Source: Geobacter sp. AOG2
GTDB lineage: Bacteria > Desulfobacterota > Desulfuromonadia > Geobacterales > Pseudopelobacteraceae
Assembly: GCF_019972295.1 (NCBI RefSeq)
Contig: NZ_BLJA01000001.1
Coordinates: 3,555,574 to 3,619,573, forward strand
Direction: 5' to 3'
DNA length: 64,000 bases
The notes below the pieces were generated by a model, which was not told where the DNA came from, made no database searches, and saw only the letters and a list, made by a program, of their open reading frames with translations. The position numbers were made by a program, and so were the translations under genes. Position 1 is the stretch's first letter; each line of letters opens with the position of its first letter. Below are positions 7,985 through 60,555 of this stretch, in pieces.

Positions 7985-9247
7985 TCAGGATGTCGCCACC
8001 GGCAATACGCTCCCACCCTCGGGCATGACCAGCGCCCGCCACGACGACTGCAGTAGCGTTTCTGCCTTTACCAGGGCGTCTTCAAGCGAAGGGGCGGGGA
8101 GCATGCCCATCTCCTCTACCTGGTGATTGGGAAACCGGGACACCAGGATGATCGAGAAGCGCTGCGCCTTATGGAACAGGGAATAGGCGGTCTGGCCGTT
8201 GATCTCGTACTGCGCCCGTAACGCGGCTTCGAACTGGTCCAGGGTGCGGTGGCGGAACCAGTTGAAGAAGGTGGCATGGCCGAAACCGTCACGGCATTCG
8301 GCCAGGAGGATCATCACGCCGCTCTCTTTGAGGGCCTGGGATGCATACTCCATGGACTTGTGCGCCTGGATGAGGTTGATGTCCTTGGGAAAACCGCCGC
8401 AGGAGACGACGACCAGATCGGCTTTATTCGCGATTGGGCAGGAAAAGAGCTCCCGGTAGGAGCGGCATCCCTGTTCGTGGGCCTCGCGCCACGATCCGGC
8501 AAAGGCCGCGATGACGCGCTTTTCCAGGGAGAGGATCGTGTTCAGGAGCAGGTCCGGGGCAACCATGGCACAGGCCTCGACCATGGCTTGGTGCACCGGA
8601 TTTCCTTCCAGGTTGCCGGTGGTGGCCGAGGGATTCTTGCCGCTGCCCGGTTGGGGATTGAGTACGCTGAAGTGGCTTGCCATGCAGGCCTGGCGGCTGG
8701 CGATGCCCGGCAGGACGGCCTTACGCCCCCCGCCGAACCCGGCGAAGTAATGAAAACCGATCACCCCGGTCAGGATGAGCCGGTCGGCCTCGGCGGCCCG
8801 TCGGTTGATGCTGACCTCGATGTTTGCGGAGGTCTTCCCCACCGTGACCAGTGAGGCTTGGTCGTCGCAGTCGTGATCGGTGACCTTGATGCGGCCATGG
8901 AGCGGTCCCAGAATCTTCTCATGCTCATGGGGCGTCTGTTTGCGGTGGATGCCGAGGGCGATGAGGATCTCGATGTTGCGATCCGGTATGCCGCGGCGGT
9001 TGAGCCGCTCCACCAGCAGGGGGAGGTACACCTCGCTGCCGGTGTAGCGGGTGATGTCGGAGGTGACGATGACGACCCGGTCGTCCGGCGCAAAACTCGC
9101 CATAACCGATTCACAGCCGTCCAGCGCCGTGGTGATGATCTCTTCGGGGGATTGGTCCGGCAGGGGTAGGGCCGGTTCTATGACGCCGGCCAGGCGTTCC
9201 TGCGGGAGCAAAAGCGGAAACGAGGTTGAGCCGTATTTAAGTTCCAC
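7985..9247 (-). CDS. LarA-family (DUF2088) nickel-pincer racemase-like protein
   Basis: The 420-residue product belongs to the lactate racemase catalytic family, which interconverts 2-hydroxyacid stereoisomers using a nickel-pincer nucleotide bound to lysine. Visible motifs are TSDITRYTG, the GIHRKQT segment (GTHR in LarA), HDCDDQ, and GFHYFAGFGGGRKAVLPGIA with the likely cofactor lysine. The start is GTG 9247 behind AGGAGG. No larB, larC or larE lies nearby, so the cofactor genes must be elsewhere if it is active. Its substrate may not be lactate, because LarA homologues act on several 2-hydroxyacids. Confidence 0.8.
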   Translation of the reverse strand: MELKYGSTSFPLLLPQERLAGVIEPALPLPDQSPEEIITTALDGCESVMASFAPDDRVVIVTSDITRYTGSEVYLPLLVERLNRRGIPDRNIEILIALGIHRKQTPHEHEKILGPLHGRIKVTDHDCDDQASLVTVGKTSANIEVSINRRAAEADRLILTGVIGFHYFAGFGGGRKAVLPGIASRQACMASHFSVLNPQPGSGKNPSATTGNLEGNPVHQAMVEACAMVAPDLLLNTILSLEKRVIAAFAGSWREAHEQGCRSYRELFSCPIANKADLVVVSCGGFPKDINLIQAHKSMEYASQALKESGVMILLAECRDGFGHATFFNWFRHRTLDQFEAALRAQYEINGQTAYSLFHKAQRFSIILVSRFPNHQVEEMGMLPAPSLEDALVKAETLLQSSWRALVMPEGGSVLPVATS

Positions 9248-46133: not shown

Positions 46134-47696
46134 CTAGACTTCCCAGTTGTCAATCTTCATAGTCCCGTTTTTGGCCAGGTTGACCTGCATCTTGAAGACC
46201 CGGTCGAGCATTTGCGGTTCGTGGCCCGCTTTCCGTCCCAGACACTCCTTGGTCGCCATGTCCAGATACTCCTGCAACAGAGGCTTGTAATCCGGATGGG
46301 CGCAGTTATCGATGATGAGTTGTGCCCTGGTTTTCGGGTCCAGGCCGCGCAGGTCGGCCAGACCCTGCTCCGTGACCAGTACGTCCAGGTCGTGCTCGGT
46401 ATGGTCCACGTGGGGTACATGGGGTACCACGCAGGTGATGCCGGTCGGGTCGGTCTTGCTCGGCCGGGCCGACGGGGTGTGCATGATGGAGAGATAGGCG
46501 TTGCGGAGGAAGTCGCCGGAACCGCCGATGCCGTTGATCATCCTGGTGCCGCCCACGAGGGTGGAGTTGGCATGGGCGTAGATGTCGAACTCCACCGGGG
46601 TGTTCATGGCGATGCAGCCCAACCGGCGGATCGGCTCGGGATGGTTGGCGATGGAGAGGGGGCGCATCAGCACCTTGTTGCTGTACTTGTCCCAATTGTC
46701 GTAGAAGCGTTTGAAGCCGTCAACCGAATAGGACAGGGAAACCGTGGAGGCGAAGTCCAGCTTCCCGGAATCGAAGAGGTCGAGCATGGTGTCCTGCAAC
46801 ACCTCGGTCCAGACCTTCAGGCCGGTGAACGGTCCCTTGGCAAGGCCGCCGATGACCGCGTTGGCGATGGAACCGACGCCGGACTGGAGCGGCAGCAGGT
46901 TCTTGGGCAGGCGGCCCACCTTCACCTCGTTGGAGAAAAAGTCGATGATATGATTGGCGATAGCTTCCGAGGTTTCGTCCTGCTCGCTGAAGGAACGGCC
47001 GTTGTCGGGGCGGTTCGATTCGATGATGGCCACGATCCGGTCCGTATCCACCCGCACGTAGGGGGAGCCGGCCCGGTCGTCCACACGGCTGATGAGGTAC
47101 GGCTGCCGGTTGGGCGGGTTGATCGGTTCGATGATGTCGTGTAACCCTTCGAAGCTGGGGATGGAGGTGTTGATCTCGACGATGATCTTGTCGGCGATCT
47201 GCACGATCTCCGGCACCGCACCGCAGGAGGCGGTCAGCACCAGCCCTCCGTTTTCCGTAATGGCGGAGCACTCGATGATGGCAATATCCAGGCGCCCGCC
47301 GTTCTCCTTGGTGTAGAAGCCATATCCCAGGTCCTGGGCGAACATGGAGAGGTGCTTGTCCCCCATGCGGATGCGGCCTTCGTTGATGCCGGACTGGATA
47401 TTTTTACCGGTCTGGTAGGGCCAGCGCCGATCGATCATGTCCAGGGAGGCCCACCGGTCTTCGGTCTCCACACCCACCGAGGCGCCGATGAACAGGTTGA
47501 ATTTCAGCTTCCCCTGCAGCCCGTTCTTCTCCACATGGTCGGCAAGGGCGATAGGCACCATTTTGGGGTAACCGGCGGGGGTAAAGCCCGACCACCCGAC
47601 GTTCATGCCGTTCTCGAACAGCGGGATGACATCCTCGACCTTCCTGATCCTGGAGTGGAGATTGGTTTTTCTGATCCTGTTGTGCAATTCTGACAT
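46134..47696 (-). CDS. Acetyl-CoA hydrolase/transferase family CoA-transferase (succinyl:acetate type)
   Basis: The 520-residue product belongs to the Cat1/Ach1 family that moves CoA between succinyl-CoA, acetate and related acids. In acetate-oxidising Geobacter, succinyl:acetate CoA-transferases both activate acetate and close the TCA cycle. Visible segments are MNVGWSGFTPAGYPKMVP near the N-terminus, LTASCGAVPEIVQIAD, PLQSGVGSIANAVIGGL and ARMINGIGGSGDFLRNAY (TRMINGIGGSGDF). I chose ATG 47696 (site aaggagaacgcgg); upstream extensions cross the promoter. It is divergent from a TetR gene with an operator between them. Confidence 0.9.
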   Translation of the reverse strand: MSELHNRIRKTNLHSRIRKVEDVIPLFENGMNVGWSGFTPAGYPKMVPIALADHVEKNGLQGKLKFNLFIGASVGVETEDRWASLDMIDRRWPYQTGKNIQSGINEGRIRMGDKHLSMFAQDLGYGFYTKENGGRLDIAIIECSAITENGGLVLTASCGAVPEIVQIADKIIVEINTSIPSFEGLHDIIEPINPPNRQPYLISRVDDRAGSPYVRVDTDRIVAIIESNRPDNGRSFSEQDETSEAIANHIIDFFSNEVKVGRLPKNLLPLQSGVGSIANAVIGGLAKGPFTGLKVWTEVLQDTMLDLFDSGKLDFASTVSLSYSVDGFKRFYDNWDKYSNKVLMRPLSIANHPEPIRRLGCIAMNTPVEFDIYAHANSTLVGGTRMINGIGGSGDFLRNAYLSIMHTPSARPSKTDPTGITCVVPHVPHVDHTEHDLDVLVTEQGLADLRGLDPKTRAQLIIDNCAHPDYKPLLQEYLDMATKECLGRKAGHEPQMLDRVFKMQVNLAKNGTMKIDNWEV

Positions 47697-48553: not shown

Positions 48554-48991
48554 CTACACCTGATGCCGGAACCAGGCGAGGACCGCCTCGACGCTCTGCG
48601 CCCCGGCGAGGCGGGATACGATCCTGCCGCCCCGGAAGAGCACCAGTTCCGGTATGCCCCGCACGCCGAACCGCGCCGCAAGAACCTGATTCTGCTGGGT
48701 GTCGATCTGGACAACCGCCGCTTTTCCCGCCAACTTCTCCGCTACTGTCCGCACCGCCGGTGCGAATGAGGTGCAGTGCGGTCACCAGGGAGCCCAGAAC
48801 TCGGCCAGCACCGGTCCCGGATAGTTTGCCACAAAGGCATCGAAAGTCTGATCCGCAAGCTGCTGCGGGTGGCGGTACAACGGAGGCAGGACGGCGCGAC
48901 AGGTGCCGCAACGCCCTTTTTTCCCTTCCTTGTCGGCGGGGATCCGGTTTGCCGTGCCGCACGACGTGCAGGTGACGATATAGTCCGACAT
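48554..48991 (-). CDS. Thioredoxin-2-like selenoprotein (UGA as selenocysteine)
   Basis: Read through one in-frame TGA at 48782-48784, this is a 145-residue TrxC-type protein. An N-terminal zinc ribbon (CTSC...CGTC, Cys8/11/28/31) precedes the thioredoxin fold with PGPVLAEFWAPW-[UGA]-PHC. The UGA is exactly at the first cysteine of the WCxxC site, giving W-U-P-H-C (Sec70/Cys73). The frame then continues through TVAEKLAGKAAVVQIDT and VRGIPELVLFRGG (cis-Pro) to a normal stop. Just 3' of the UGA the mRNA can form a hairpin. ATG 48991 has GGAGGGAGG. It should be a cytoplasmic disulfide or peroxide reductant. The alternative, a nonsense mutation at that codon, is much less likely. Confidence 0.88.
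48739..48781 (-). promoter_or_regulatory. Candidate bacterial SECIS element
   Basis: Starting directly after the UGA, the minus-strand RNA pairs CCGCACTG with CAGTAGCGG (one bulged A). Above an internal loop, CGCACC pairs with GGTGCG around a GGC apical loop. The loop begins with G about 23 bases from the UGA, which fits the loose bacterial SECIS consensus (G in the first loop positions, 16-37 bases from UGA). Confidence 0.7.
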
Positions 48992-49228
48992 TCTTAACCC
49001 TCCCTCCTGATATCTTCGCGCAACTCCTCCACTACGGTCAAGCGGTTCCATCACAAGGGCTCCACGCCGGAGCCAAAGCTTGTACCCGCGGATGACCGAA
49101 CTCCGGCCAAGCCGCGGGTTGTTCCGGTGTTTACGGAAGCTCTTCCTGCGTCCGTGATGTTTGCGCTTGCAACGATCATGGAGGTGTTGCAAAATACCAG
49201 GCTGGCTTCTTATGGGCAGGGGTGACGT

Positions 49229-49756
49229 GTGGCTGGTATCTTCAAACAGAGGGCGCATATTATCAAGCTGGCTTTCGTGGCTGTGTTGTGGTGCGCCCTC
49301 GTCGCCTGTACGGGGCCGCTTGTCTATCGGCCCGTGCAGAAGCCCGCAGCCGCGGCCGCCGCGGAGCCGGACGACGCCCTCCCCATGCCTGATCCGAAGC
49401 TCAACGATGCCACCCTGGCAGGGGTCGATACCACCGGCATCGGCATCCGCGATGATGTCCATATCTGGATATACCAAAATTACACGGCCGTCGTGAAACG
49501 TACTATTGTCATGACCATGGCCAAAGCTATTCAGGATGTGATGGTCACTCCCCCTACGACCACGGAGGAAGCAAAAAGCCTGGAGCAATCCTATAAGGAT
49601 GCCGCCATGATGCTCAGGGCCGTTCGGGGGCTCACGCAAAGCCAGGCCGCTGAAATGGACCGGCTTCTGTTTTTGGAGACGATCGATACGCCGGAACGCA
49701 TGGAGGCGTATCTGCGGTACAACCTGCTGCTGGAGCAGGGTAGGGGGGCACACTGA
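49229..49756 (+). CDS. Lipoprotein of unknown function
   Basis: The 175-residue product has a lipobox (ALVACTG, Cys near residue 27), an Ala/Pro-rich spacer and a helical domain (DVHIWIYQNYTAVVKRTIVM then TMAKAIQDVMV; EMDRLLFLETIDTPERMEAYL). It has no recognised family. The start is GTG 49229, with aggggtgac upstream; a GTG two bases earlier is out of frame. It is monocistronic, divergent from the selenoprotein gene and followed by a strong terminator. Confidence 0.7.
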   Translation: MAGIFKQRAHIIKLAFVAVLWCALVACTGPLVYRPVQKPAAAAAAEPDDALPMPDPKLNDATLAGVDTTGIGIRDDVHIWIYQNYTAVVKRTIVMTMAKAIQDVMVTPPTTTEEAKSLEQSYKDAAMMLRAVRGLTQSQAAEMDRLLFLETIDTPERMEAYLRYNLLLEQGRGAH

Positions 49757-50568: not shown

Positions 50569-50632
50569 GCTGTCTCAATGAGACCCTATAGGCTTTCCGC
50601 CCCATCCTCGCGGATGGTTGAGTATTATCGTC
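50552..50632 (-). promoter_or_regulatory. GEMM-I class cyclic-dinucleotide riboswitch aptamer
   Basis: The minus-strand RNA has the GEMM-I core: a hairpin CCATCC-GCGA-GGATGG with a GNRA loop, then GGGGCGGAAAGCC, a second stem (GTCTCATTGAGAC), then AGCCGGGTTGCC (tetraloop receptor) and a closing stem. In the 5' strand AATACTCAACC, the base aligned with position 20 of the Vc2 aptamer is A (50623). In Geobacter this variant is associated with 3',3'-cGAMP recognition (GEMM-Ib) rather than c-di-GMP. Ligand choice is an inference. Confidence 0.85.
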
Positions 50633-59134: not shown

Positions 59135-60555
59135 GCGATCCTCTGTACCCCGATTTCGGCATCCTCCTGGTGGATGACGAGCCGGACTGGCTCAGTTCCC
59201 TTTCCCTGACCCTGGAGTCCTGCGCCGGCATTACCAACATCACCACCTGTAACGACAGCCGCCAGGTCATGGCCATCCTCGATCAGGGCGGGATCGGTCT
59301 GATCCTCCTGGACCTCACCATGCCGCACTTGTCGGGGGAAGAACTTCTGGAACAGATCGCCGAACACCATCCCGAGGTCTGTTCCATCGTCATCAGCGGG
59401 CTGAACCAGGTGGAGACCGCCGTCAATTGCATGAGGCGGGGGGCGTTCGACTATTTCGTCAAGACCGACGACGAGGGCCGCATGGTAAACGGCGTGCTCC
59501 GGGCCGTGCGCATGCAGGAACTTCAACGGGACCACCGGGAGATGGCCAGCCGTTTCAGTTCGCCGGAGGTCCGGCATCCCGAGGCCTTCAGCGCCGTCGT
59601 CACCAACGACCGGGGCATGCAGGCCGTATTCACCTATGCGGAAGCGGTGGCCGGAAGCCCCCAGCCGCTCCTGATTACCGGAGAGAGCGGCGTCGGCAAG
59701 GAGCTCATTGCCCGCGCCGTCCATACCTTGAGCGGTTGCCGGGGCAAACTGGTGACGGTGAACGTTGCCGGGCTCGACGATACGGTCTTCGCCGACACCC
59801 TGTTCGGCCACGTGCGCGGGGCCTTTACCGGTGCCGAGCAGGTGCGGCGCGGCATGGTGGAGGAGGCGGCCGACGGTACCCTCTTCCTGGACGAGATCGG
59901 TGACCTGAGCATCCCTTCCCAGGTGAAGCTCCTGCGGCTGCTTCAGGAGGGGGAATACTTCCCTCTGGGGAGCGACCTGCCGAAACGGCTCAAGGCCCGT
60001 ATCATCGTCGCCACCCACCAGGACCTGGCGGCCAGGGAGGCGTCCGGGGCCTTCCGCCGCGACCTCTACTACCGGCTGCGGACCCACCAGCTTCATGTCC
60101 CGCCGCTGCGGGAGCGGCGCGGGGATATCCCCCTGCTGTTGGATCATTTTCTGGAGGAAGCGGCCCGGGCCCTGGGCAAGAAGAAGCCGACCCCGCCCAA
60201 GGGGTTGGCGCAATTCCTCGCCACCTACGGCTTCCCCGGCAACGTGCGCGAGCTCAAGGCCATGGTCTACGATGCCGTCAGCGTGCACCGGGATAGGATG
60301 CTTTCCATGGATTCGTTCGTCAAGGCCGTGGAACGTTCCCCGAAACAGGGCGGGGGGATGGCGGCGGCCCCGGCCGCCAAGCAGAATCCCTTTGCCGGGT
60401 TCGATGAACTGCCCACCTTCAGCGATGCCGCCGCGTTTCTGGTCATGGAGGCCCTGGACCGGGCCAACGGCAACCAGACCCTTGCGGCGCGGCTTCTGGG
60501 CATATCCCAGCCGGCGCTTTCCAAACGGCTGAAGATGCGGCAGCAGGGCGGGTAA
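59131..60555 (+). CDS. Sigma-54-dependent response regulator (NtrC family)
   Basis: The 474-residue protein has a receiver domain (LLVDDEPDWLSSLSL, phosphoacceptor in ILLDLTMPHLSG), then an AAA+ domain with Walker A GESGVGKELIARAV, the GAFTGA loop (VRGAFTGAEQ) and Walker B ADGTLFLDEIGDL. A Fis-type helix-turn-helix follows (NQTLAARLLGISQPALSKRL). The GAFTGA loop is intact, so it can activate sigma-54 promoters. GTG 59131 overlaps the kinase stop (GTGA). It is the cognate partner of the upstream kinase. Confidence 0.95.
   Translation: MSDPLYPDFGILLVDDEPDWLSSLSLTLESCAGITNITTCNDSRQVMAILDQGGIGLILLDLTMPHLSGEELLEQIAEHHPEVCSIVISGLNQVETAVNCMRRGAFDYFVKTDDEGRMVNGVLRAVRMQELQRDHREMASRFSSPEVRHPEAFSAVVTNDRGMQAVFTYAEAVAGSPQPLLITGESGVGKELIARAVHTLSGCRGKLVTVNVAGLDDTVFADTLFGHVRGAFTGAEQVRRGMVEEAADGTLFLDEIGDLSIPSQVKLLRLLQEGEYFPLGSDLPKRLKARIIVATHQDLAAREASGAFRRDLYYRLRTHQLHVPPLRERRGDIPLLLDHFLEEAARALGKKKPTPPKGLAQFLATYGFPGNVRELKAMVYDAVSVHRDRMLSMDSFVKAVERSPKQGGGMAAAPAAKQNPFAGFDELPTFSDAAAFLVMEALDRANGNQTLAARLLGISQPALSKRLKMRQQGG

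Follow-up and report, generated by a model that had tools for sequence, protein, structure and literature searches.

A probable selenocysteine-containing thioredoxin-2-like protein encoded across an in-frame TGA in a genome of the Geobacter order

The gene, its neighbourhood and its predicted protein

The window, the whole 64-kb stretch of DNA that was analysed, carries on its minus strand a gene of 145 residues at 48554–48991, defined by translation, family matches and orthologues. The frame opens with ATG at 48991, closes with TAG at 48554–48556 (146 codons including the terminal TAG) and contains a single TGA, codon 70, at 48782–48784 (−). By eye, a Shine-Dalgarno-like stretch, AGGAGGGAGGG, lies 5′ of the ATG at 48998–49008 (−). 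With U standing for the putative selenocysteine (Sec), the surroundings of residue 70 read EFWAPW-U-PHC, and GIPEL follows downstream. Translation thus confirmed the frame that the original prediction had described, and the TGA does occupy the first Cys of the thioredoxin redox site (WUPHC). The same prediction held that conventional gene calling would truncate or split the gene, and this was seen under translation table 11, where the locus fell apart into a 323-aa frame stopping at the TGA and a 66-aa frame from 48754.

To place the gene in its context, we compared the window with 60 named loci, naming neighbours by eye; protein clusters, which contained numerous antisense frames, were left out of the comparison. 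A 175-aa frame at 49229–49756 (+), lipoprotein-like by eye and without a Pfam match, was matched in 3 of the 60 loci, all near relatives, at 61–69% identity. The frames at 50578 and 51234 were matched in two loci each, the latter also weakly in a third, and those at 46134, 49865 and 51787 in one locus each, while the TetR and M16 neighbour genes were matched in none of the 60. With so few neighbours matched, the locus does not belong to a conserved operon.

For the profile searches, C was substituted for U in the read-through product. An N-terminal zinc ribbon (Pfam Zn_ribbon_Thio2, PF21352; 33.5 bits against a cut-off of 27.1, 3.9e-8) was found before the TGA at residues 7–33 (48893–48973, −), with CxxC motifs at residues 8–11 and 28–31. 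Its cysteines C8, C11, C28 and C31 are invariant in alignment A1, whose 16 rows were taken from the 41 family orthologues. A thioredoxin domain (Pfam Thioredoxin, PF00085; 90.1 bits against 23.5, 1.1e-25) covers residues 43–140 (48572–48865, −), with W-U-P-H-C at 69–73 and a GIP loop at 112–114 that carries the cis-Pro by analogy. This match spans the TGA, bearing out the predicted run of uninterrupted protein-like sequence after it, GIPEL included. None of the 11 NCBIfam matches reached its own cut-off: the top one, the TrxC equivalog, scored 105.2 bits against 125, and the thioredoxin equivalog TIGR01068 scored 79.6 against 96.8. Because the TrxC cut-off was missed, we file the protein as thioredoxin-2-like and not as TrxC.

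In a sequence search of the PDB, the top scores went to multi-domain disulfide isomerase-like proteins (8eky, 3idv), and the thioredoxin-2 entries 7d6l, 2ppt, 3p2a and 7ysi aligned across most of the length. An AlphaFold2 model built on A1 reached a mean pLDDT of 94.8. Its top Foldseek matches in the PDB were thioredoxin-2 structures (TM about 0.7, whole-length rmsd 7.4–8.1), and single thioredoxin domains superposed at about 1 Å. The high whole-length rmsd suggests that the two domains are probably placed differently from those of the thioredoxin-2 structures.

The canonical thioredoxin redox motif is WCGPC, and the dipeptide of thioredoxin-2/TrxC is GP. The window gene departs from both with WUPHC. 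Across the 89 orthologues described below, the residue before the redox site is W in 69, T in 19 and S in 1, and the dipeptide ahead of the second redox Cys is Pro-His in 88 and Thr-His in the remaining one (G028); the motif search demanded His-Cys, and no gene failed it. Compared with thioredoxin-2/TrxC (PF21352 plus PF00085; 2ppt, 7ysi, 7d6l, 3p2a), the protein therefore shares the domain order, the zinc-ribbon cysteines and the fold, and differs in having Sec for the first redox Cys, PH for GP and a TrxC score below the cut-off. The original description of the protein as a thioredoxin-2 homologue stands for its zinc ribbon, domain order and fold, but not for its UPHC motif or its TrxC score.

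Pro-His is also the dipeptide of DsbA, whose motif is CPHC. The protein might on this account be a Sec-containing DsbA-like oxidant or isomerase instead of a general disulfide reductase, a role that the near-universal Pro-His favours and that we nevertheless consider rather unlikely. Pfam and NCBIfam searches at E up to 0.001 returned no DsbA family, and a weak DsbE match lay far below its cut-off. The architecture and the top fold matches in the PDB are those of thioredoxin-2, and no signal peptide was seen by eye ahead of the zinc ribbon. We accordingly retain the reading as a thioredoxin-2-like disulfide oxidoreductase.

Conservation of the TGA and of the hairpin behind it

To assess how widely the TGA is shared, we collected orthologues from the order at E up to 1e-30. 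The search returned 89 orthologues in 84 of 141 genomes, with TGA at residue 70 in 77 and a Cys codon in 12, so that every orthologue read carries one or the other, as the proposed alignment check had anticipated. Within the family, 40 of 76 genomes contained 41 orthologues at E below 1e-49 (30 TGA, 11 Cys codon). A named collection gave 49 TGA and 11 Cys among 60 loci read of 62 (L118 and L119 were left out); it came from a scan with two peptide patterns that may miss members, and, being drawn from overlapping genomes, it is no independent count. The nearest named relatives belong to Oryzomonas and others to Geomonas, Citrifermentans, Pelotalea and Geomobilimonas; the orthologue of Oryzomonas japonica (L060) is one of the TGA genes. 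Judged by these nearest relatives, the assignment to Geobacter is right as to the order, but the genus is Oryzomonas-like and not Geobacter proper.

Decay after the stop, which would have spoken against the original prediction, was not seen: across the 66 codons examined after the TGA (62 in G124, where the contig permits no more), 76 of the 77 TGA genes show no further stop. The one gene with an interruption, in the draft assembly G096 (C76:5122–5547, L156), has a second in-frame TGA about ten codons on, at the 3′ end of the hairpin described below, and is either a pseudogene or the product of a read error. Two copies of the Sec-thioredoxin family were observed in each of G082, G083, G098, G099 and G032. 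Additionally, the thioredoxin proteins of G082 (C1:998478–998903, L157), G015 and G031 (L038, L037) are identical across different families of the order, through either horizontal transfer or mis-binned contigs. In G126, the single orthologue match is a TGA gene.

We then compared the two sides of the TGA by dN/dS against 11 chosen relatives, four of which gave no value on one or both sides. Of the five genus-mates compared, G051 and G053 gave a dN/dS of 0.11 before the TGA and 0.09 after it; against G001 it was 0.22 before and 0.18 after, and against G126 0.08 before and 0.25 after. Against the other three genus-mates, G049, G050 and G052, it was 0.08–0.12 before and 0.27–0.30 after, with a pN of 0.12–0.14 after the TGA versus 0.06–0.09 before, together with less silent change. 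The higher values after the TGA in these three and in G126 weigh against the Sec reading. As every value is far under 1, both sides of the TGA look constrained.

A SECIS-like structure was expected after the UGA, and a hairpin with an 8-bp stem and the loop GGC is present at 48748–48766 (−). Counting the T of the TGA as nucleotide 1, it occupies nucleotides 19–37, starting 15 nt past the TGA; the loop is formed by nucleotides 27–29, and its first base, a G at 48758, lies 24 nt after the TGA. Counting identical 60-mers once (77 Sec stretches reduced to 68, 12 Cys stretches to 12), the results showed intact pairs in 536 of 544 cells among the Sec stretches versus 67 of 96 among the Cys stretches, counts that are inflated by the relatedness of the sequences. 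When the pairing partner was slid by 1–3 positions as a control, only 35–62% (Sec) and 35–53% (Cys) of cells paired. Of the 68 distinct Sec stretches, 66 have GGC or GGT as their loop.

Individual pairs vary in a way that keeps the stem. Pair 21–35 is C-G in 64 Sec stretches and T-A in 4, and pair 20–36 is T-A in 48, T-G in 18, A-T in 1 and unpaired in 1. The change at pair 21–35 couples the last base of a Phe/Leu codon with an Arg-to-Gln replacement, for which selection on the protein offers no obvious ready explanation. Codon use within the hairpin is nearly fixed among 73 distinct Sec genes (Pro CCG 73/73, Val GTG 73/73, Ala GCA 71/73) compared with use elsewhere in the same genes (CCG 380/785, GTG 351/813, GCA 224/1196).

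Folding energies gave a weaker signal. The mean over 25 nt was −11.2 kcal/mol for Sec versus −4.3 kcal/mol for Cys stretches, with little difference over 42 nt (−15.6 versus −13.6 kcal/mol). Against shuffled sequences, the window sequence scored z −2.8 (47 nt) and −2.3 (24 nt), values so mildly unusual that energy alone is not convincing. An Rfam search of window positions 48600–48900 gave no match up to E 10. Our case for the conservation of the hairpin is built on its compensatory changes, its wobble bases and its difference from the Cys genes. A TGA-plus-hairpin pattern, derived from this same gene family, occurred once in the window (start 48784) versus 0.00 expected.

Selenocysteine machinery and other readings of the TGA

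To determine whether the genome could decode UGA as Sec, we scanned its one contig of 3,921,258 bases for the genes named in the original prediction (selA, selB, selC and selD), and all were present. Two tRNA-Sec genes were found at 79.5 and 77 bits (Rfam cut-off 47), both called by ARAGORN as tRNA-Sec with anticodon TCA; 14 further matches lay below the cut-off, at an E-value at which all 14 control genomes also match, 5 of them above the cut-off. One selA (617.5 bits, cut-off 267.9) and two selB genes (350.7 and 322.7 bits, cut-off 242.25) were detected. One selD lay above the cut-off (358.8 bits versus 125), itself carrying one in-frame TGA, and three other matches fell below it. By eye, GGUCC-UGC-GGGCC can be read after the selD TGA. 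The genome also has one thioredoxin reductase gene above the cut-off (388.9 bits), and a second, ordinary thioredoxin-like frame without stops was seen at C1:29941–30201.

Among relatives, tRNA-Sec was detected in 25 of the 29 family genomes that carry a TGA gene, selB in 26 and at least one of the two in 27; for the 11 genomes with a Cys gene, tRNA-Sec and selB were each found in 9. Two of the Cys-gene genomes (G024, G027) gave no tRNA-Sec, selB or selA match. Searches found selA and selB but no tRNA-Sec in G002 and G065, and tRNA-Sec but no selB match in G005 (52% complete). In G012, a tRNA-Sec gene (C1:60222–60315, −) was observed 40 nt past the end of the Sec-thioredoxin match (59750–60181, +), in convergent orientation (C1:59750–60315).

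The strongest results against a simple Sec reading come from G017 and G040, drafts that are 96% and 92% complete. Both have a TGA gene with 8 of 8 hairpin pairs, and searches for selA, selB and tRNA-Sec, including a laxer tRNA-Sec search, found nothing in either. G017 gave no selD match, and the selD of G040 lacks a TGA, as does that of G015, although G015 has tRNA-Sec, selA and selB. Either contigs are missing from the two drafts, or their thioredoxin genes were stranded after the loss of Sec decoding.

We weighed three other readings of the TGA against Sec. If the gene were a pseudogene, the TGA would be a true stop with a decaying 3′ part. The stop that table 11 places there, the second TGA of G096 and the genomes G017 and G040, in which the TGA may be a genuine stop, fit that account. 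It is nonetheless very improbable, given the open frame downstream in all but one TGA gene, the purifying selection that persists past the TGA, and a TGA shared by most orthologues together with a hairpin kept by compensatory changes. It is just as hard to credit that UGA is read through by a Trp-tRNA or another near-cognate tRNA, independently of SelB and Sec, placing a different residue at position 70. The persistence of the TGA in G017 and G040 would suit such decoding, but the only sense codons at position 70 encode Cys and none Trp, genes with TGA retain the hairpin, which has weakened in the older Cys clade described below, and the window's genome has the full Sec machinery. That the TGA is a misread or misassembled TGC or TGT, an idea to which the Cys codons of 12 orthologues lend some colour, can practically be discarded, as TGA and hairpin recur in separate assemblies of many projects. 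On the shared TGA, the hairpin, the open frame and the Cys-only alternatives, we rejected all three and kept the Sec reading.

The window's genome is one of three in the six genomes of its genus (with G050 and G052) in which we observed two selB genes, at C1:468021–469166 (−) and C1:514103–515679 (+) (L142, L143); those of G050 and G052 are at L145, L146, L148 and L149. They fall into two lineages. The first, which includes the selB of G049, shows 91–96% identity between genomes. The second, with a tRNA-Sec just upstream, shows 73–86% between genomes and 74–76% to the first. The single selB of G053 has 57–62% identity to all others. In G052, the 3′ end of the tRNA-linked selB reads differently, possibly through a frameshift.

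The other tRNA-Sec of the window's genome stands away from selB (C1:2649465–2649558, +; L144 4966–5063) and adjoins, by eye, a transposase-like frame (L144 5151–6023, −). It is a D-stem variant of the selB-adjacent copy; most differences between the tRNA-Sec copies fall in the D stem and look compensatory by eye. Two tRNA-Sec genes with compensating changes have been reported for eight bacterial genomes (PMC5330540). In G053, a genome with a Cys thioredoxin and a divergent selB, two near-identical tRNA-Sec genes lie 2.5 kb apart (C43:6528–6625 and 9019–9116, L152), and a third, odd one lies on C30 (L153).

The two SelBs of the window's genome differ at 5 of their last 45 residues, which does not indicate distinct SECIS specificity. 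A literature search, judged from listings and passages, returned nothing on duplicated selB. Both decoding sets, one selB alone and one selB with its own tRNA-Sec, exist in the DNA. That they share out the selenoproteome, with the zinc-ribbon Sec-thioredoxin and its DsbA-like UPHC site depending on one of them or tuned through them to selenium supply, is a speculation about division of labour to which we give a small chance.

Proposed function, Sec/Cys exchange and meaning for the family

The checks that could be run, on the Sec machinery, the SECIS-like hairpin and residue 70 of the orthologues, all favoured the hidden selenoprotein originally proposed. From the frame, its TGA, the conserved hairpin, the Sec machinery, the thioredoxin reductase gene and a confident fold prediction, all read from sequence, we conclude that the locus very probably holds an intact gene for a thioredoxin-2-like selenoprotein with Sec at UGA 70, inserted through SelB and the hairpin. 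The protein would be a thiol/selenol-disulfide oxidoreductase, probably in the cytosol. In the mechanism we propose, SelB with Sec-tRNA(Sec) would bind the hairpin directly after UGA codon 70, and selenocysteine would be placed as the attacking residue of U70-P-H-C73. Sec70 would then attack the disulfide of a presumed substrate to form a mixed selenenylsulfide, which Cys73 would resolve, the predicted direction of the reaction being reduction of the target. Thioredoxin reductase would be the likely partner that re-reduces the protein, and the N-terminal zinc ribbon may bind zinc.

To trace the exchange of Sec and Cys, we masked the redox residue and built a tree of 82 proteins without an outgroup, after excluding 3 fragments and 4 duplicates from the 89. 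The tree requires three Sec/Cys changes, and the starred branches force three; 33 of 79 inner branches are starred and 21 open, with few alignment columns for 82 rows. Ten Cys genes form one clade (99/91) nested among Sec genes. The Cys gene of G053 pairs with the Sec gene of G051 (100/91), and that of G077 groups with two Sec genes (97/80). The hairpins of these two isolated genes (TGT in G053, TGC in G077) retain all 8 pairs, compared with 3 to 7 of 8 in the ten-gene clade, where three genes have 7 and the A-P-(A/V)-V-R segment is altered in most. We read this pattern as Sec-to-Cys changes of differing age, with the hairpins of G053 and G077 as probable relics.

A Sec-containing thioredoxin of Geobacter species is already known. 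Zhang et al. 2006 (PMC1794560, Tables 1 and 3) include thioredoxin among the selenoproteins of G. metallireducens, G. sulfurreducens and 'G. uraniumreducens', GSU3446 represents a TGA thioredoxin cluster (2007, PMC1914089), and thioredoxin selenoproteins are also mentioned in PMC1242214 and PMC2398784. Another account gives 13 selenoprotein genes for G. sulfurreducens PL and describes bacterial SECIS elements as hard to define (PMC12013277). The likeness to the gene studied here lies in the TGA thioredoxin, and we infer orthology from the published descriptions and not from sequences. The zinc ribbon and PH dipeptide are features of the present gene that were not met in those descriptions. Similarly, Table 1 of PMC1794560 has 15 Sec-to-Cys events in four families, none for thioredoxin, whereas our tree needs three Sec/Cys changes; the same paper mentions remnant SECIS structures. 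The Trx-like 1 selenoproteins of marine metagenomes, defined by COG0526 (PMC2398784), have the same UxxC motif in a thioredoxin-like protein and are likened to this gene by description only. Literature searches by title returned no Sec thioredoxin-2, the phrase matching mainly thioredoxin reductase, and found nothing on Oryzomonas with selenoprotein and no second source naming GSU3446. What is added here, as far as the literature searched goes, is the description of the zinc ribbon with UPHC and the three Sec/Cys changes.

Since a standard-code reading loses the gene, the redox inventory of many genomes of the Geobacter order may be one thioredoxin short. The family amounts to a natural experiment, in which the SECIS-like hairpin is kept with UGA, persists as an intact relic in two isolated Cys genes, and is weakened, in both RNA and protein, in the older Cys clade. 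A hairpin inside the coding region pins the protein at A-P-(A/V)-V-R, and the older Cys clade is freer to vary there.
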